IMG/VR virus record: IMGVR_UViG_3300001097_000065
Span: 1-24,140 of that record
Direction: 5' to 3' (one strand)
DNA length: 24,140 nt
DNA from: a virus
Shown here: positions 1-24,140 of the stretch, in pieces
Numbering within the stretch: the first letter of the stretch is position 1
Layout: every line of letters begins with the position of its first letter
Position numbers and translations under genes: made by a program
Notes under the pieces: generated by a model
The model's input: the letters and a program-made list of their open reading frames with translations, nothing else
Told to the model about the DNA's origin: nothing
Databases searched by the model: none

Positions 1-3000
1 ATCTTGTAATTGAAAATGAAGGTGATCGTGGAACATTTTATATTTGGATAAATGGTGGGTATGTAACATTTACTCCACAGTATAAATGGCAACTGGGATC
101 TGAAGAGGTTGTTAATAATACCAATTTTGTAACAGACTTGACATCCCCAGACCTATTCAACAATGATATATCTGGCAGCCCAACATACAGAGAGTTTCAA
201 TACCTACGTGGCATTCGTGTTGTTGTAGATACAATGAATAAGTTTGACTCAACATTTGATTTAATTGAAATGTCTCCAAGATTAGTTGTTGATATTTCTG
301 ACAAAGTTATAGATTTTAAAATTACAAAAACACTTTCAGACATAGGCATTACATCTTTACCAGTTGGTCAACTGCTTGCCTCAAATGGAACTATATCATT
401 ATTTGATGATGATCAAGCGTTTAATGATCAAAATAATCTTAGCATTATTTCAGACTATGTAAGAAAAAATATAAAGTTTAATTTTTATGAAGTAATTCTT
501 GATGTTGATGGGTTTGACTATTACGTTCCAATAAAAACCTTATACTCTGAAGGGTTTCCACAAGCAGATGTAACGGCAGGAACACTGTCTATTAACCTTA
601 GAGACTTTTTCTTTTTTTTAGAATCAATGCCCGCCCCAAGACTTTTAACAACAGAGACATCTTTAAGTTATGCAATTACAACTTTACTTGACTATATTGG
701 CTTTACAAATTATTCTTTCAAAAGAACTGAAGGAGAATCAGATCCAATAATTCCATATTTTTTTGTAGCACCAGATCAAAATGTTGCACAGGTTTTAAAT
801 CAACTTGCTCTTGCAACACAGACGGCAATGTTCTTTGATGAATATAATAACTTTATCGTAATGAGTAAAGACTATCTCATGCCTACACTAGAGCAAAGAT
901 CAACAGACTTTGTTTTTTCTGGATCTAATAATCAAACAGACACTGGTGTGACAGAAAATGCAACATCTGGAAATTTACCTAACATTATATCCATAGCATC
1001 AAAAGACAAAAAAATCTATAATGATGGAAAGATTAACTATACAAGTAGATACATCCAAAGATCTTATGGAACAATTAGACAGTCCAGTATGGTTGATCAA
1101 AATAAAACTTGGATCTACAAGCCTGCGCTACTTTGGGAAGTTTCGGGAACAGATAATACAAAAACAATAAATGAAGTCGCTTCAAAGCAGGGTAGTTATG
1201 TATTAGGAGCAATGCCATTAAACTCTAATATACCCTCTGTAGCACCAACAGTAGTTAATCATGCCATAACAAATAACCTAATGGACCTAGGAGAAAACAT
1301 CTATTGGCTAACCAGATACAATGGATACCTATACTCTAATGGTGAAATTATTAGATATGATGCAGCAGAGTTTAACATAACTGGAGTTGGAAATGTTTTT
1401 ATTAGCAATAACCAAGAGTATCAAAAATACTTTGCTTCAATTTCTTTTAATGGAAAAATCTATCCTACAGGATTAATAAGAATCTATACGGTTCCTTATT
1501 ATGAAACTGTTGATGGAATTAATAGATTGCAAAATGGAGCAGTCGTAGAGCATGGTCGTGGTCAGTTTGGAACAGCCATAACTAGCCACACTGCTGGAAT
1601 AAATGACTATTGGTCAAACAATGAATATGTTCGTGGCTGCAATATGCAAGCAGGGTACATGTTTACAACACAATTAGATCAAGACGTTACCTATCCTTCT
1701 ACAACTGTAGGTGCTGCTGGAGTAGACAATGTTCTTGCAAGACAAACAACACGCAATGGTGTTATTAAAAACTTTATGGCAAATAATTACTTAACAGAAA
1801 CATCAGTTAATAATTTAAAAAGTACAGAAACTGGAACTATTCAGTCATCTGCCTTGGTAATGAATGGTCCATCTTTTAAAACAACTGAAACACCACTTAA
1901 CTTTATTTCTTATGTTTATAAACCATTAAATAATGCTTATAAGCATTTTGGAACAAGAATTAGAGTTGTTGGAAAAATTGAAAATAATATCAACAGAACC
2001 CAAACACCTATTGGAAGTACAACTTACTACCAGGCTTCTGGAGTTCAACCAGATCAGAATGTAAATATTGGTGGTGGCTCTGGAGGTTTGGCTATTCTTC
2101 TTAATCCAGAAACTAACAACGGATATTACTTTGAAATTATTGCGTTAACAGAAGATAACGTTACTTCATATTTAAAATTAAATACAAAAGGTGAGGCTGA
2201 AAAGTCTATCAATAATGTTGTTTTTTATAAGATTAAAAAAGACTCTTCAAATAATGATGCTATTCCAGTTAAACTTTACGGAGGTCTTTCAAAAATACTT
2301 GTCGATGATGGAAGATTTACAGGTCAGTATCGAATGGCGGGAGAAGAAAATCCAACAGTTTATGATCTCTCTGTAGAGTATCAAGACATTGGAAAAACCA
2401 GAAGGTTCTTTTTATACATAAATAATAAATTAATTAAAATTGTTGATGATAAAGATCCACTGCCAATTTATAACAATATGGCTTTGTTTACTCGTGGTTC
2501 ATCACGATGCATGTTTGAAAACATTTATGCTCTTTCAGAAAACTATTCTCAGAACAGTGTATTTACTGTTGGAGAAACACTAGCATCTTCTTTGTCTGAA
2601 GGAAAGATCAATGCAAATGAATCTTTTAGAAAGTATGCCATGAGCGGAGTAGTTCAATCAACTTATTTATCTGGAGTTAGTGCACAAGAACCACCAAAAT
2701 ATAATATGTATTTTGAAGAATTTGGTTCCATTATGCGTGAATGTGCTTACTTTAATATTAAATATGATCGTGCATACCCAGCATTATACGCACAACTATC
2801 TCCAACCTTTAATAGAATTAAGGGCTATACAACTTCTGGATTTAGAGCAGACTCATACGGGGCAGAATTTTTAATATTTAATGCAACAGATAAAGCGTTA
2901 AGTCTAGATGAAACTACTGGAAACTTTTTAAGAATTCAAGGAATTACATTTACACAAGATACAACGCATGAATTAAGTGTTGATGAATATTTTAAAAAAC

Positions 3001-3392
3001 GTGGAAATCTTGCAGACCCAGAGTTTAAAGGTGATACCTTAGTTTATTCTCCTCTTGTAGAAAAAATAAAGTATGATGAAATTAGACAGAGTAGAATTAT
3101 TTATGGTAAAAATGATTTTAGTATTGATAGTATTTATATTCAAACTCCAGATGATGCTGAAGAACTAATGGGTTGGATTATTAATAAAATCATGCATCCT
3201 AAAAAATCTATTGGCATTAATATATTCTCAATACCAACATTACAACTTGGAGATATTGTTACTATTAATTATAAAGACTCTACAAATCTAGACTTAGTAA
3301 CACCAGATTCAACTAGGTTTGTTGTTTATAATATTGAATACTCTAGAGGAGTAGAGGGACCAGATATGACTGCATATTTGAGTGAGGTATAA
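1..3392 (+). CDS. large phage tail protein (hub/minor tail type), 5'-truncated by window edge
   Basis: The reading frame is open from base 3 to the TAA at 3390-3392, about 1129 codons, with no stop before the left edge. The TTG at 138 is therefore not the true start and the gene begins outside the window. The protein is a very long, Asn/Thr-rich structural protein. Roughly residues 626-846 (DNA 1879-2540) look like an inserted concanavalin/LamG-type beta-sandwich: Gly-rich strands, a GYYFEI strand and a late RRFFLYINNKL strand. The C-terminus, with a PTLQLGDIVTINY stretch and an ending in MTAYLSEV, is typical of tail hub or minor tail proteins that close the tail tip. It heads a run of tail genes with a 4-base gap to the next, so a distal-tail role in host recognition is likely. 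The family call is from style and context; I recognise no catalytic motif. Confidence 0.7.
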   Translation, partial: LVIENEGDRGTFYIWINGGYVTFTPQYKWQLGSEEVVNNTNFVTDLTSPDLFNNDISGSPTYREFQYLRGIRVVVDTMNKFDSTFDLIEMSPRLVVDISDKVIDFKITKTLSDIGITSLPVGQLLASNGTISLFDDDQAFNDQNNLSIISDYVRKNIKFNFYEVILDVDGFDYYVPIKTLYSEGFPQADVTAGTLSINLRDFFFFLESMPAPRLLTTETSLSYAITTLLDYIGFTNYSFKRTEGESDPIIPYFFVAPDQNVAQVLNQLALATQTAMFFDEYNNFIVMSKDYLMPTLEQRSTDFVFSGSNNQTDTGVTENATSGNLPNIISIASKDKKIYNDGKINYTSRYIQRSYGTIRQSSMVDQNKTWIYKPALLWEVSGTDNTKTINEVASKQGSYVLGAMPLNSNIPSVAPTVVNHAITNNLMDLGENIYWLTRYNGYLYSNGEIIRYDAAEFNITGVGNVFISNNQEYQKYFASISFNGKIYPTGLIRIYTVPYYETVDGINRLQNGAVVEHGRGQFGTAITSHTAGINDYWSNNEYVRGCNMQAGYMFTTQLDQDVTYPSTTVGAAGVDNVLARQTTRNGVIKNFMANNYLTETSVNNLKSTETGTIQSSALVMNGPSFKTTETPLNFISYVYKPLNNAYKHFGTRIRVVGKIENNINRTQTPIGSTTYYQASGVQPDQNVNIGGGSGGLAILLNPETNNGYYFEIIALTEDNVTSYLKLNTKGEAEKSINNVVFYKIKKDSSNNDAIPVKLYGGLSKILVDDGRFTGQYRMAGEENPTVYDLSVEYQDIGKTRRFFLYINNKLIKIVDDKDPLPIYNNMALFTRGSSRCMFENIYALSENYSQNSVFTVGETLASSLSEGKINANESFRKYAMSGVVQSTYLSGVSAQEPPKYNMYFEEFGSIMRECAYFNIKYDRAYPALYAQLSPTFNRIKGYTTSGFRADSYGAEFLIFNATDKALSLDETTGNFLRIQGITFTQDTTHELSVDEYFKKRGNLADPEFKGDTLVYSPLVEKIKYDEIRQSRIIYGKNDFSIDSIYIQTPDDAEELMGWIINKIMHPKKSIGINIFSIPTLQLGDIVTINYKDSTNLDLVTPDSTRFVVYNIEYSRGVEGPDMTAYLSEV

Positions 3393-3396
3393 ATAA

Positions 3397-4359
3397 ATGT
3401 TTGAGACATCAAGATTTGTAGGAATACCTTCAGCAAGTTCTGCTTCACAGTCTACTGGAATGACAAATAAATCTGCAACACCAATAAAAGTTACTGTTGA
3501 AAAAGGTGATACGTTAACTTCTATTGCTAAAGAAAATAATACAACAGTAAAAGCAATTCTTGCAGCAAATCCTAAATTTACAGAACAAGCCAAATATCAA
3601 GGTGGAAAGATGATTTGGTCTGGAACAAAAGTTGTAATTCCTCCTAAATTTTCTACACCAGCAAAAACAAATACTCCTGTAGTAGATGTTCCTAAAACAG
3701 TTGAACCACCACTAGATACCTCAACTACATCAACACCAGCGACAACAGATACAGCGACAACAGATACAGCGACAACAGATACAGCGACAACAAATACAAT
3801 AACAACAAATACAATAACAACAAATACAACAACAAGTCGTGGCGGATATACAAATGCAACTCCTATAACACCAGCAGATATAACAGCCGTTTCTGTTGCT
3901 GCTGGGCTACCTCCAGCACCACCAGTAAAGACTGCGCCAATAGATACAATATTATTTGATAATAATGAAGTTCCAATTGAGGTAATGACAGACCTTATTT
4001 TTGAAAATATTGGAGGGCATGAATTAATTAACATTGCTCGTAATGATATTATTAATGGTCAACAGATTTCTTATCAACCCATTAAAAATATATCTTCAAT
4101 CCAGCAACAGTATAATCCAAACAATATTGTTAGTCTTCAGTCTACCTCCGATAAGTATTTTGCTAACTTTTCAATAAAATTAGAAAATAAAATACCACAA
4201 TTAGGAACGGGTCCAGATGGTGGGAGTATTTATATTGATCCTAATAATGGGAATATAGTAATTGAAATTATAAATGTAGAGTTAGACGAGCAGGTAGAGG
4301 TAGAAATTACCGTAAGTGGTACAATATATGAAGCGGAATTTGGAGAAATAGTATCATGA
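3397..4359 (+). CDS. LysM-domain tail-associated protein with TDTAT repeat linker
   Basis: This 320-aa protein starts at ATG 3397 with GAGGT about 9 bases upstream. Residues about 31-84 form a LysM domain: a VEKGDTLTSIAKEN first strand and helix, an AILAANPKF helix, and a GTKVVIPPKF closing strand. LysM domains bind N-acetylglucosamine in peptidoglycan. A Thr/Pro-rich linker of five-residue repeats follows (about 95-148), then a C-terminal domain ending in an acidic beta-rich segment (VELDEQVEVEI). There is no signal peptide, so it is likely a virion part rather than a secreted protein. In many siphophages a LysM-bearing baseplate protein sits next to the tail hub. Here the linker suggests a flexible cell-wall-binding arm on the tail tip. 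The LysM call is firm; the virion location is inferred from its neighbours. Confidence 0.75.
   Translation: MFETSRFVGIPSASSASQSTGMTNKSATPIKVTVEKGDTLTSIAKENNTTVKAILAANPKFTEQAKYQGGKMIWSGTKVVIPPKFSTPAKTNTPVVDVPKTVEPPLDTSTTSTPATTDTATTDTATTDTATTNTITTNTITTNTTTSRGGYTNATPITPADITAVSVAAGLPPAPPVKTAPIDTILFDNNEVPIEVMTDLIFENIGGHELINIARNDIINGQQISYQPIKNISSIQQQYNPNNIVSLQSTSDKYFANFSIKLENKIPQLGTGPDGGSIYIDPNNGNIVIEIINVELDEQVEVEITVSGTIYEAEFGEIVS
3739..3828 (+). repeat. 15-bp coding tandem repeat, six units
   Basis: Six in-frame 15-bp units start at 3739, 3754, 3769, 3784, 3799 and 3814. The first three are identical (GCGACAACAGATACA). The last three drift to AAATACA endings and to ATAACA beginnings. They encode a five-residue Thr-rich repeat (ATTDT, then ATTNT/ITTNT) in the linker of the LysM protein. 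Units stay in frame, so copy number changes would lengthen or shorten the linker without breaking the gene. Confidence 0.9.
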
Positions 4360-20137: not shown

Positions 20138-20160
20138 ACAAACTAACAAGGAGAAAAATG
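20132..20160 (+). promoter_or_regulatory. leader with strong Shine-Dalgarno for the Ala/Thr-rich secreted protein
   Basis: ATATAAACAAAC at 20132-20143 is followed by AAGGAG and then ATG 20158. The leader resembles the ones at 9840 and 15628. It suggests the secreted protein is made at high level. I cannot tell whether ATATAA is a true promoter; there is no TG extension or -35 in view. Confidence 0.45.
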
Positions 20161-21291
20161 AATTCATTCAAGAAAATCTCAATTGCTATCGCTGCAGCCC
20201 TAGCAATTACAAGTCTATCTACAGTTTCAGCAACGGCAGCCCCGTTAGTTGTTACAGTAGCAACTGCAGCAAACACGACAACGGCACTTGCACCTTCAAC
20301 AGTTGCAGTGCCAGCAACAAATGTAATTGCTGCGGGTAATACTATTGCACTTGCTGCAACAGCAGATACAGCAACAGCGGTTACATTTACAGCATCAGGA
20401 GCAGTTCGTTTAGTAACTGCACTTAATACAACAGATGCACCAAAGACAGTTGCTTCAGGGGTTACATCCACTTCAGCAACATCGGCAGGAACCGCATTGA
20501 CAGTTTATGCCTACACAACATCAACAACAGTTGGATCTGTTACCATTACAAATGGTGCCTATTCAACAATCGTTTATATTCAGGGTACAGCAGGAGTAGC
20601 AGCAAACATTGCTCTATCAGTACCAACATCAACAGCAGTAGGAACAACTCCTACATTTGCTGTATCAGCAACAGATGTATTCGGGAATCCCGTTGCATCA
20701 GAAGCAGTTGCAGTAACATTAATTGGAGCAACATTCTCTGATGCTTCAATCACAAAGACACTTACAACTTCAGCAGTCACTTCAGCAGCAGGCGTTACTC
20801 CAGTAACAGTCCTTGGTTCTGCTACAGGAACACTTGCTACAGCAGTTGCAGGTTCAGTTACAGTGGTTGCAACAGATGCAGCAATTGCAGCAACAGCAAC
20901 TGGTTTGCCAGTAGCAGTCAAGTCAGCAATTGCAACATTTGTAGTATCAGATCTTGCTACTCAGATCGCAGCATTGACAGCACAGGTTGCTGTACTAACT
21001 AATGCTAATTTAGTTGCAAAAGCAGCAGCAGAGGCAACAGCAGTTTCAGTTAAGTTAGCAGCAGATGCAGCACTTGTAATTTCTAAAGCAGAAACAGCAA
21101 AAGCAATTGCAGATGCAGTAATAGAAAAGATTGCAGCAACAGCATCTGCTAAGGCAGCAACAGATCTTGCAACAGCATCTGCTAAGGCAGCAACAGATCT
21201 TGCAACAGCAACTTATAAGGCACAGTACAATGCTCTTGCTAAGAAGTGGAATGCAAAGAATCCTAAGACTAAGGTTGCGTTAAAGAAGTAA
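20158..21291 (+). CDS. secreted Ala/Thr-rich surface protein, Ig-like, with Lys-rich C-terminus
   Basis: This 377-aa protein begins with a classical Sec signal: MNSFKK, a hydrophobic core (ISIAIAAALAITS), then ATAAP with a cut near residue 28. The mature part is very rich in Ala, Thr, Val and Ser and beta-like. Residues about 155-235 resemble a Big/invasin-type Ig domain (TPTFAVSATDVFGNPV). After that comes a helical Ala-rich part with a repeat (about 270-350) and the basic end KKWNAKNPKTKVALKK. There is no LPxTG or lipobox. The style recalls surface proteins of low-GC planktonic actinobacteria and differs from the tail proteins upstream. It has a strong AAGGAG leader and ends in a terminator. 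A cell-surface or envelope role is likely; function is unknown. Confidence 0.65.
   Translation: MNSFKKISIAIAAALAITSLSTVSATAAPLVVTVATAANTTTALAPSTVAVPATNVIAAGNTIALAATADTATAVTFTASGAVRLVTALNTTDAPKTVASGVTSTSATSAGTALTVYAYTTSTTVGSVTITNGAYSTIVYIQGTAGVAANIALSVPTSTAVGTTPTFAVSATDVFGNPVASEAVAVTLIGATFSDASITKTLTTSAVTSAAGVTPVTVLGSATGTLATAVAGSVTVVATDAAIAATATGLPVAVKSAIATFVVSDLATQIAALTAQVAVLTNANLVAKAAAEATAVSVKLAADAALVISKAETAKAIADAVIEKIAATASAKAATDLATASAKAATDLATATYKAQYNALAKKWNAKNPKTKVALKK
21138..21203 (+). repeat. 33-bp direct tandem repeat, two copies
   Basis: Two adjacent perfect 33-base copies (21138-21170 and 21171-21203), with seven more matching bases after, lie near the end of the secreted-protein gene. 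They encode an 11-residue Ala-rich helix repeat (TASAKAATDLA). The unit is in frame, so slippage would change the helix length only. Confidence 0.9.
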
Positions 21292-21385: not shown

Positions 21386-23533
21386 ATGGAGTTAAAAATA
21401 CTAAAAAGATTGTTGCGTGTAGCCCTTGTATTGATCTTAGCCTTATCCCCGCTTGTCTTGTTGGTAGATAAGGCTCACGCAGCCTCTGCAGGGCTTGTAG
21501 CCAAGGTTTATGACTGTCTTGGATACAATGATTCTCCCCCAATGCCCTGTAATGACTCAGCCCCAATAATTACAACTACTGTTCCTAATATAGACCTTCA
21601 GTGGGGTGGTGGATCAGTTTTAGGTGGTCCCTCAGAAGATGTTCAAGTTCATTTTTCAGGGTATATAGTAAGCCCAACAACACAAAACATATCATTCTTA
21701 GCAACAGCAGATGATGGAACCCGATTATATATAAATGATACATTATTAACAGATGATTGGGTAGATAAGGGTGGTGGAGGAACTACCTCTGAGCCAATTG
21801 CTTTTACTGCTAATCAGCCTAAAAAGATAGATCTTTGGTATTATGAAAATGGTGGCGGAGCCAATGTATTTTTAAATTGGGATATTGGTCAAGGTATGCA
21901 AATTATTCCAGCATCAGCATTTTATCAAACAGATCCTGGATATACAGCACCTCCACCTCCAGCAACACCATCAATTACTCCAATATCAAACCTACAATAC
22001 ACTTTAGGTTCTCAAAACATTGCCCTAACTTGGGATTCAGCAACAGCACAGAATACAACTTTAAGAATATATTTAATTAATTTTTATGATTTAGATACAG
22101 CAACAGCAACAACATCTGGTGGATGGGGTATATGGAACTATGTATCTCAAGGTCACTCATACAATTTTCCATACTATTTATTAACTGGAAGTAATCCAGT
22201 AACTACTGGTTGGGGTCCCGTAAGAATTTGTATTCAGGCATCAAGTGAAGATCCAAATGCTGGACTAAATGGGATTAGGTCTGAGCCAGTGTGCGTTGAT
22301 ATAGATGTTGTAGATCCACAAATAGCAATTGATGTTGAAACTGAAAGACTTAGATTGGTAGAAGTTGCTAGAGTAGCAGAGGTAGCAAGACTTGCAGAAA
22401 TTGCTAGAGTTGCAGAAGTGGCAAGATTAGCAGAAGTAGCAAGACTTCAAGCAGAAGCAGCAGCACTGTTAGCAGCACAACAAGCAGAGGCTGCAAGGTT
22501 AGCAGAAATTGCTAGAGTTGCAGAAGTGGCAAGATTAGCAGAAGTAGCAGAAGCAGCAAGAGTTCAAGCAGAAAGACAGGCTGCTATAGCAGAGGCTGCT
22601 AGAGTAGAAGCAGAAAGACAGGTAGCCCTTGCCGAAGCAAACAGAATTGCTGCAGAAGCAGCAGCAGCAAAAGCAGAAGCAGATAGATTAGAGGCAGAGG
22701 CTGCTGCAATTAAGGCTGAAGCAGATAGAGTTGCTGCAGAACTTGCTGCTCAGAAAGCAGAAGAAGATAGAATTAAGGCTGAAGCAGAAGCCCAAGCAGC
22801 CGAAGAAGAAAGAATAAAGGCTGAAGAGGATGCTAAAGCCAAGGCAGAAGAAGAAGCCAAACTATTAGCAGAACAAAAAGCACAAGAGAAAGCAGATGCA
22901 AAAGCAAAAGCAGATGCAGAAGCAAAGGCTAAAGCAGATGCAAAAGAATTATCAGATAAGCAGGCACAAGAAAAAGCAGATGCTCAGGCTGAAAAAGACA
23001 AACTTGCTGCTGAAGAAAAAGCAGAACAAGAGTTAATTGATAAAGCAAAAGATGGTGAGGCTACTCAAGAAGAAAAATTAGCGATTGCAGAAGTTCTTAT
23101 TTCATCACTTGCACCAGGAGAGTCCTTATCTGCAGCAGAAGTCAAAGCAGCAGGAATTGAGTACAAAGACCTTCCGCTAACAATCCCAGTAGATGTTAGA
23201 ACAGATGAACAAGGAAATGCAGTTGTAATAACAGCAGAAGTCGCTGCTCAAGTTGAACTAATATCAACTCCAGCCGCATTTGCTGCAGAATTATTTTCAA
23301 ATCCAGGAGCAGCATTAGCAGCACTTGGAAGCATTGGAGCAGATATGTCTCCAGCAGAAAGAGAAGAAGCAACCGAGATAGTTGTTGTAACAGTTGTTGC
23401 TACAGGGGCTGCAATAGCAGCAGCAGGAGCAGCAGGATCCACTGGAGGAGGATCGTCTAATTCAGGCGGTGGCTCAGGTGGAGGAGGCTCTTCAGGAGAA
23501 TCCAAGGGTATGAGAAGGAGGAAAGGAAAGTGA
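21386..23533 (+). CDS. secreted PA14-domain protein with long coiled coil and C-terminal membrane anchor
   Basis: This 715-aa protein starts with a Sec signal (basic KILKRLLR, hydrophobic VALVLILALSPLVLLV, AHA cut near residue 32). Residues about 34-182 form a PA14 domain, a carbohydrate-binding beta barrel: ATADDGTRLYINDTLL, then IDLWYYENGGGANVFLNW. Cys44 and Cys55 may form a disulfide. A second beta domain (about 195-310) is followed by a continuous Ala/Glu/Lys-rich helix (about 313-553), TolA-like. A small domain then leads to one hydrophobic segment (IVVVTVVATGAAIAAAGAA, about 664-682), a Gly/Ser-rich stretch and the basic end KGMRRRKGK. This is the layout of an envelope-anchored protein with a long stalk. 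It is a partner or rival to the secreted protein before it. Function is unknown. Confidence 0.7.
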   Translation: MELKILKRLLRVALVLILALSPLVLLVDKAHAASAGLVAKVYDCLGYNDSPPMPCNDSAPIITTTVPNIDLQWGGGSVLGGPSEDVQVHFSGYIVSPTTQNISFLATADDGTRLYINDTLLTDDWVDKGGGGTTSEPIAFTANQPKKIDLWYYENGGGANVFLNWDIGQGMQIIPASAFYQTDPGYTAPPPPATPSITPISNLQYTLGSQNIALTWDSATAQNTTLRIYLINFYDLDTATATTSGGWGIWNYVSQGHSYNFPYYLLTGSNPVTTGWGPVRICIQASSEDPNAGLNGIRSEPVCVDIDVVDPQIAIDVETERLRLVEVARVAEVARLAEIARVAEVARLAEVARLQAEAAALLAAQQAEAARLAEIARVAEVARLAEVAEAARVQAERQAAIAEAARVEAERQVALAEANRIAAEAAAAKAEADRLEAEAAAIKAEADRVAAELAAQKAEEDRIKAEAEAQAAEEERIKAEEDAKAKAEEEAKLLAEQKAQEKADAKAKADAEAKAKADAKELSDKQAQEKADAQAEKDKLAAEEKAEQELIDKAKDGEATQEEKLAIAEVLISSLAPGESLSAAEVKAAGIEYKDLPLTIPVDVRTDEQGNAVVITAEVAAQVELISTPAAFAAELFSNPGAALAALGSIGADMSPAEREEATEIVVVTVVATGAAIAAAGAAGSTGGGSSNSGGGSGGGGSSGESKGMRRRKGK
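22394..22549 (+). repeat. 48-bp direct repeat in the coiled-coil region
   Basis: A perfect 48-base copy at 22394-22441 recurs at 22502-22549, 108 bases apart, inside the PA14 gene. Both encode the same AEIARVAEVARLAEVA stretch. Identity at the DNA level, not just the protein, points to recent duplication within the stalk. Confidence 0.85.
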
Positions 23534-23700
23534 TGAAAATCATCAAAGATATGATAGATCAAGCATGGACACTCCTAGGTATGTTTATCGCCTGGGTTGT
23601 CTTAGATGGTAGCGCAAAAGATGTTGTTGGATACGGAATTGTATTCACGCTAATATTCTGGGCACTAACATATAAAATTAGAAATAGAGAGGAGGACTAG
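23533..23700 (+). CDS. small two-helix membrane protein, possible holin
   Basis: A TGATG overlap at 23533, with a strong GGAGG and AAAGGAA just before, opens a 55-codon frame to TAG 23698-23700. There are two hydrophobic segments, one at about 11-25 (AWTLLGMFIAWVVL) and one at about 31-47 (VVGYGIVFTLIFWALTY). A short turn (DGSAKD) separates them, and a charged end follows (KIRNREED). Small size, two membrane helices, a charged tail and its position before another membrane protein fit a class II holin that opens the membrane at lysis. There is no enzyme nearby to confirm it, and an anti-holin or other membrane factor is also possible. Confidence 0.6.
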   Translation: MKIIKDMIDQAWTLLGMFIAWVVLDGSAKDVVGYGIVFTLIFWALTYKIRNREED

Positions 23701-23701
23701 T

Positions 23702-24004
23702 ATGAATAGTGTAAAAAATATTAATAATATCCTCATGCGTATAGTTGCCGTCTTTGCTGCTAATGGTTTGGCAGTTATTGGAGCAGGAGCAATTGCAGGC
23801 GTTGGAGTAACAACAGCAGTCACTATTGCTGGACTAACAGCGGTAGCAGCAGTTGTAGAGAAGTTGGCTCGTGCATTTATGGATGATGGCAAACTTTCAG
23901 CAGATGAAATTAATGCAGCATTTTCAACGGTAGACAAAAATGCAATTACTGAAGAAGATCAAGTTGTAGCCAAGCGTAGAGCCACCACAAGAAAGACTAA
24001 ATAA
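23702..24004 (+). CDS. small membrane protein, possible holin
   Basis: This 100-aa protein starts at ATG 23702 with GAGGAGG just upstream. It has two hydrophobic segments, at about 11-33 (LMRIVAVFAANGLAVIGAGAIAG) and about 34-51 (TTAVTIAGLTAVAAVV). An amphipathic region follows (EKLARAFMDDGKLSADEINAAF) and a basic end (AKRRATTRKTK). The DDGKLSADE loop resembles an EF-hand-like calcium loop but lacks a full set of ligands. Actinophage holins often show this layout of membrane pair plus charged tail. It ends 27 bases before a terminator-like hairpin. Together with the gene before it this would be a two-gene holin pair; direct proof is lacking. Confidence 0.6.
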   Translation: MNSVKNINNILMRIVAVFAANGLAVIGAGAIAGVGVTTAVTIAGLTAVAAVVEKLARAFMDDGKLSADEINAAFSTVDKNAITEEDQVVAKRRATTRKTK

Positions 24005-24084: not shown

Positions 24085-24140
24085 ATGACTTGTATTGCTG
24101 TTGTGCGTCAAGATGACAAGGTTTATATGGCTGGTGATCG
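24085..24140 (+). CDS. start of a proteasome/HslV-like Ntn-hydrolase, truncated by window edge
   Basis: From ATG 24085, with GGAGGGG seven bases before, the frame is open to the right edge. Only 19 residues are visible: MTCIAVVRQDDKVYMAGDR. The pattern (Met then Thr, a short hydrophobic strand, a charged turn, a second strand and GD) matches the N-terminus of proteasome beta and HslV-type proteins. There, removal of Met exposes Thr as the catalytic nucleophile, and the second strand leads to a conserved Asp. Such proteases are known in some phage genomes. The residues agree well but are too few to be sure; the full gene lies outside the window. Confidence 0.55.
   Translation, partial: MTCIAVVRQDDKVYMAGD

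Follow-up and report, generated by a model that had tools for sequence, protein, structure and literature searches.

Helices rich in Ala, Glu and Lys or Pro-rich rods cross the envelope in TolA, in TonB spacers and in C-terminally anchored Gram-positive surface proteins. Freshwater actinobacteria are among the commonest bacteria of lakes. To our knowledge, how their phages meet the cell envelope is largely unknown.

Among described phage proteins, the unimolecular spanin gp11 of phage T1 is an exported protein that spans the envelope (PMC6139136). Among the reported actinophage lysis proteins, LysZ of corynebacteriophages and LysF1a/LysF1b of mycobacteriophages have one or two membrane helices (PMC13056207). 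An action on the envelope lipoglycan was proposed for LysZ, and mycobacteriophage lysis cassettes pair a two-helix LysF1a with a one-helix LysF1b (PMC13056207). The lectin MpPA14 binds its sugar through a Ca ion, which two consecutive Asp residues hold in place (PMC8092209).

The phage protein described here joins known parts, a PA14 lectin fold and a predicted spanin-like topology, to a new one, an anchor family absent from every library searched. Its domain layout, its pairing with a small gene, the swapping of its modules and its lysis neighbourhood were established by computation. The window is the whole stretch of viral DNA that was analysed (24,140 nt).

Layout of the stalk protein

The open reading frame at 21386-23533 (+) encodes 715 aa with the following parts.

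21386..21481, +: Sec signal peptide, residues 1-32 (sequence; model helix 2-25; hydropathy)
21494..21925, +: PA14 domain, modelled residues 37-180, candidate sugar-binding head (PF07691; Foldseek; profile)
21968..22303, +: FN3-like beta domain, residues 195-306 (model; weak FN3 matches in relatives L074 and L114)
22316..23050, +: Ala/Glu/Lys stalk, helices 311-510 and 526-555 (model; tandem repeats)
23066..23344, +: conserved alpha/beta anchor domain, residues 561-653, phage-specific family (model and family comparison)
23351..23434, +: C-terminal hydrophobic (membrane) helix, residues 656-683 (model; hydropathy)
23435..23530, +: Gly/Ser linker and basic end RRRKGK, residues 684-715 (sequence)

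The signal peptide was read as the N-region MELKILKRLLR, a hydrophobic core and the region KAHA|AS, with cleavage expected after AHA. Its hydropathy maximum was 2.93 (12-residue window). The stalk was modelled as an unbroken helix of 200 residues (311-510) followed by the helix 526-555, about 230 helical residues in all, and the first rod is about 30 nm long in the model. The helical state is well founded on the sequence; the straightness is a property of the model. The stalk DNA carries tandem repeats of 18 and 42 nt. Elsewhere in the window, a 15-nt tandem repeat (six copies, 3737-3828) lies within the gene of a LysM-domain protein (3397-4359). The pLDDT was about 85 for the PA14 core, about 65-75 for most of the stalk and about 58-78 for the anchor domain. 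The C-terminal helix is Ala-rich and moderately hydrophobic (Kyte-Doolittle maximum 2.22), and the 32-residue Gly/Ser-rich tail behind it is disordered in the model. No LPXTG-type motif was present at the C-terminus, and the Pfam search gave no Gram_pos_anchor match.

The original prediction had named a signal peptide, a PA14 domain, a long Ala/Glu/Lys helix and a C-terminal membrane helix with basic end. All of these parts were confirmed, the PA14 domain with 32.7 bits for PF07691 (Pfam cut-off 24). Overlooked were the FN3-like domain (about 195-306), the anchor domain (about 561-653) and the small downstream gene P55. The same order of parts was found in 78 full-length relatives (window included) and thus is not due to chance. 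A C-terminal stretch with a hydropathy of at least 1.6 was detected in 77 of these 78 proteins.

PA14 and FN3 domains are known from phage tail proteins, and minor tail proteins occurred among the weaker Foldseek matches. A virion protein was considered, in which the PA14 head would bind the receptor as part of a tail fibre or spike. This is very improbable. Cleavable-type signal peptides and C-terminal hydrophobic helices were found across the family, the protein is strictly paired with the predicted membrane protein P55, and no PHROG tail match was obtained. The gene also lies outside the tail block of the window, where a minor tail protein is encoded at 3-3392. The claim of an envelope stalk instead of a virion layout was upheld by the conserved export signal and anchor, two stalk chemistries and the lysis neighbourhood, and is supported as far as the anatomy is concerned.

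The PA14 head

Two sites of the head were compared with solved PA14 lectins.

21710..21715, +: Asp109-Asp110, candidate Ca/sugar-binding pair (alignment with relatives and solved PA14 lectins)
21848..21853, +: Asn155-Gly156, putative counterpart of Gln-Gly in the PA14-lectin ligand loop (by-eye alignment)

With Foldseek, the model matched the PA14 domains of RsgI3 and MpPA14, the lectin of a Marinomonas RTX adhesin in its sugar-bound form; for MpPA14 the TM was 0.65-0.69 (normalised by target) and the identity 15-19%. The profile search yielded RsgI3 with E 8e-29 and an RTX adhesin PA14 domain with E 3.5e-8. Asp109-Asp110 is invariant in 19 PA14 relatives, and its place in the alignment matches the Asp pair of the solved lectins. 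Because of these fold and profile matches and the aligned, invariant Asp pair, sugar binding by the head is likely. A further PA14 protein is encoded by Pelagibacter phage HTVC008M (L047, 3746-5071) soon after the curli genes csgF, csgG and csgB; it is perhaps part of another phage-made surface structure.

Exchange of heads and stalks

By motif, PA14 heads occurred in at least 31 of the 78 full-length proteins, and Pfam added L050, L058 and L074. Another beta-domain head with a TFG motif was found in about 26 of the 78. The head of L114 is SUEL-lectin-like (28.8 bits, below the cut-off of 31.4); in whole contigs SUEL gave no match, neither in the relatives nor in the controls. Single-linkage clustering merged nearly all heads and was not used. 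In L005 the anchor, P55 and a Pro-rich stalk are kept; the head is absent.

Two types of stalk were distinguished. The 36 distinct Ala/Glu/Lys helices have a median of 248 residues (37 nm) and the 24 distinct Pro-rich stalks one of 126 residues (39 nm if fully extended), the similarity of the medians depending on the chosen thresholds and on the assumed rises per residue. The similar median reach of two unrelated stalk chemistries suggests that the stalk is a spacer. L050 has a PA14 head on a Pro-rich stalk.

An adhesin or brush would make the infected cell sticky or coated and lead to clumping or grazing resistance, aiding transmission. The fold match to an RTX adhesin lectin and a layout like that of long-stalked adhesins agree with this, and the headless Pro-rich form suits a brush. 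However, late timing would leave little time for such an effect and the strict link to P55 is not explained by it. We regard it as unlikely.

The head and stalk DNA of the window is 99-100% identical to that of L003. In contrast, identity is 68-87% in most 150-nt bins of the terminase and 50-64% where the anchor begins. These differences indicate that head and stalk were exchanged recently, with the border at the stalk-anchor junction. Furthermore, five protein pairs have a head identity of at least 90% and an anchor identity below 75%.

Such exchange of sugar-binding heads would be expected for receptor masking. A displayed lectin would cover the glycans of the infected cell or of debris and stop adsorption or loss of progeny, and the heads would track the host glycans. 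The predicted export and anchoring of the stalk protein are in line with this, and the slot of the neighbouring exported protein varies too. On the other hand, the gene is placed among late and lysis genes, which is late for the exclusion of a second phage, and the headless L005 exists. A head shared with the phage's own tail proteins was looked for in ten records and was not found; PA14 occurred outside the stalk protein in none of the ten, so no module is shared with tail proteins. Taken by itself masking is rather doubtful; as a close rival of lysis it is nearly as likely.

The partner protein P55

The stop of the stalk gene overlaps the start of a small gene.

23533..23700, +: P55, 55 aa, two hydrophobic stretches (obligate partner)

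The members of the P55 family have 54-60 aa and an invariant core, IDQxWTLLGMFIAWVVLDGSAK. The gene lies downstream of the stalk gene, overlapping it or within 14 nt. P55 was present in 40/40 assessable loci selected by the anchor. Conversely, the anchor was located just upstream in 76/76 assessable loci selected by P55, and pairing was again 76/76 in a second P55 sample, whose contigs are partly the same as in the first. At least 600 P55 matches were obtained in each of two scans, and the counts of 76/76 refer to the matches listed. Two of the loci have an extra gene for a small membrane protein of 74 aa, which separates P55 from the stalk gene (L067:835-1059, L068:5777-6001).

Two hydrophobic stretches were recognised by eye; with a strict 19-residue scan at most one exceeded 1.6, at about 1.62-1.66. 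Two membrane passes are probable, not certain. Regarding known holin families, P55 gave no PHROG match, and its Pfam matches were below the cut-off and to non-holins. Co-evolution of P55 and anchor was examined as well and was not supported, the correlation being 0.17 with anchor similarity and 0.18 with head similarity. P55 may be in contact with the stalk protein. In general, P55 is a conserved, predicted membrane protein, nearly invariant over more than 100 loci.

Distribution and host

With the anchor region as query, 41 relatives were identified among viral contigs, and the stalk-protein family comprises at least a hundred relatives. Thus the protein is not the single oddity for which it had been taken: its family is large and modular and has an obligate partner. 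The anchor region matched none of the PHROG, Pfam and NCBIfam models, and comparison of its fold (model pLDDT 64) with the PDB gave nothing at E <= 0.001. Neither the anchor nor P55 was detected in named phages, and Yaboi, a related Streptomyces phage, is without anchor, P55, PA14 and CHAP. The statement of the original prediction that no phage protein of such layout is described still holds as far as PHROG, NCBIfam and named phages were searched.

Bacterial surface proteins often contain PA14, FN3 and Pro-rich regions. The phage could therefore have picked up a surface-protein gene of its host in recent times that plays no part in the phage cycle. In 395 Actinomycetia genomes, however, the anchor was not found with an alignment that does match phage contigs, and 231 pattern matches in GTDB genomes included no confirmed one. 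Even the best matches to the head in cellular genomes reach no more than about 30-42% identity, and the anchor is kept across many phages. Of all explanations considered, a carried host gene is the least probable.

WhiB was encoded in all nine longer relatives (9/9) and in Yaboi. WhiB is described as confined to Actinobacteriota and as a key marker for recognising actinophages (PMC10202952). Thus, the host is probably an actinobacterium. The terminase is 51% identical to that of Streptomyces phages of the Stanwilliamsviridae. A freshwater origin is suggested by the low-GC, WhiB-bearing relatives together with general knowledge of such phages.

Gene neighbourhood

Two further genes of the window flank the stalk gene and P55.

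20158..21291, +: second exported protein, Ig-like part and Ala-rich coil, without C-terminal TM (variable slot upstream)
23702..24004, +: holin-like protein of 100 aa, hydrophobic N-terminal half (phrog_443 holin, E 9e-4)

The nine longer relatives (42-127 kb) each contain exactly one anchor, and P55 and the CHAP endolysin were likewise matched with confidence only once per contig. In eight of the nine, the endolysin is encoded on the same strand 2-7 kb from P55, not adjacent to it; the nine share synteny and are not independent cases. In a frequent arrangement, the terminase is followed by the exported Ig-like protein, the stalk protein, P55, the holin-like protein and the HslV-like protein, and the endolysin precedes or follows them.

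The holin-like gene is the next one of the same run after P55, and its homologue in L068 directly precedes the CHAP endolysin. The best match of the holin-like protein is phrog_26427, labelled as nuclease, a label which looks wrong. Small membrane genes follow the stalk gene in L067, L068 and L213. One of them, just downstream, encodes a protein of 122-126 aa that has a single hydrophobic stretch near its N-terminus and ends in a charged tail, and which resembles the kind found in mycobacteriophage lysis cassettes in size and layout.

Several neighbours were noted in addition. The slot between terminase and stalk gene holds the second exported family (20158-21291; L002:2006-3712; L013:5854-7809) and shows wholesale replacement between phages whose flanking parts share 98% identity. 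This protein was not found in 198 host genomes. Near the holin-like gene, relatives encode an HslV-like Ntn-hydrolase (phrog_1040 in L009, 12821-13375), the apparent start of which is also seen at 24086-24140, where the window breaks off. An exported subtilase (PF00082) is encoded near the stalk region in L009 (13926-14858) and L005 (7023-8168), and an exported protein of L211 (6224-7357) appears by eye to be like PstS-type phosphate-binding proteins.

Proposed function

The best explanation is a late, envelope-spanning lectin pole acting at lysis. It is held tentatively, somewhat short of an even chance. The neighbourhood favours it somewhat over masking. Topology, sugar binding, late timing and lysis role are inferred as follows. 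The host Sec pathway would export the stalk protein late, and the C-terminal helix would keep it in the cytoplasmic membrane of the host, where the basic tail would point inwards and P55 would probably accompany it. On the outer side of this membrane would lie the alpha/beta domain, the rigid rod would pass through the wall and the head could reach the surface glycans. The predicted reach of the sugar-binding tip is about 30-40 nm from the membrane. Holin and endolysin would first open the membrane and cut the wall. Then the membrane-to-glycan tether would loosen the outer glycan layer and the progeny could leave. This would resemble the action of a unimolecular spanin, with a lectin tip in place of the lipid.

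Counted for lysis were the signal peptide and C-terminal hydrophobic helix found family-wide, the obligate, mostly overlapping P55 with its two hydrophobic stretches, and the CHAP endolysin 2-7 kb away in 8/9 relatives, with one anchor, P55 and CHAP each. The small membrane genes after the stalk gene in L067, L068 and L213, the two stalk types of similar reach and the heads with sugar-binding folds point in the same direction, as do WhiB in all nine relatives, which argues for an actinobacterial host, and the anchor not being found in cellular genomes. Counted against it were an endolysin that is near but not adjacent in syntenic, non-independent relatives, a P55 similarity that follows the anchor no better than the head, and the moderately hydrophobic, Ala-rich C-terminal helix. 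Furthermore, the hosts presumably have a single membrane, so a spanin may be needless. The headless L005 was counted against lysis as well, and because of it a simple membrane-to-wall link via the head is weakened.

In a wider reading, many freshwater actinophages would use a device for lysis or exit that forms a class of its own. It would be a pole rooted in the membrane and tipped with a lectin, whose heads and rods can be exchanged and whose small membrane partner is nearly invariant, and it would break or manage the outer glycan layer. This is possible, but well short of an even chance, and the same grading jointly covers a head recombination that would follow the host glycans. If true, the module would show how phages get through the envelope of actinobacteria when they leave or how they protect their burst, and the sugars on host surfaces could be read from the swapped heads.

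Comparison with known systems

The UniProt relatives of the stalk protein are unnamed proteins of uncultured phages only. A0A6J5Q5W7 (35% identity over 708 columns), A0A6J5NEV5 (56% over 167) and A0A6J5NGG5 (47% over 124), PA14, FN3, SUEL and TerB-like proteins of uncultured Caudovirales, are probable family members. Their names derive from domains only, without an assigned function.

The Ala/Glu/Lys helix or Pro-rich rod crossing the envelope is common to this family and to TolA, TonB and Gram-positive surface proteins. TolA and TonB are anchored N-terminally, whereas the anchor of the window protein is C-terminal; the Gram-positive surface proteins differ by the LPXTG motif, missing here, and by the phage origin of the window protein. 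With the PA14 lectins (MpPA14, other RTX-adhesin PA14 domains and the RsgI3 PA14 pair) the head shares the beta-sandwich fold and the Asp-Asp site. In contrast to these, it is a single domain on a phage-encoded stalk, with low identity to MpPA14 and predicted binding.

LysZ and LysF1a/LysF1b are likewise actinophage proteins with membrane helices, but the window protein has a C-terminal anchor and a large head and stalk; LysZ was both likened and set apart by description only. As in the unimolecular spanin (PMC6139136), the protein would be exported, with the outer end N-terminal and the sole membrane helix C-terminal, would span the envelope and may belong to the lysis genes. Its signal peptide is without lipobox, there being no Cys in the cleavage region, and thus it is not a member of the unimolecular spanins. 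A sugar-binding-type head takes the place of the lipid, the family proteins have about 450-970 aa, the host is probably an actinobacterium and P55 is the partner.
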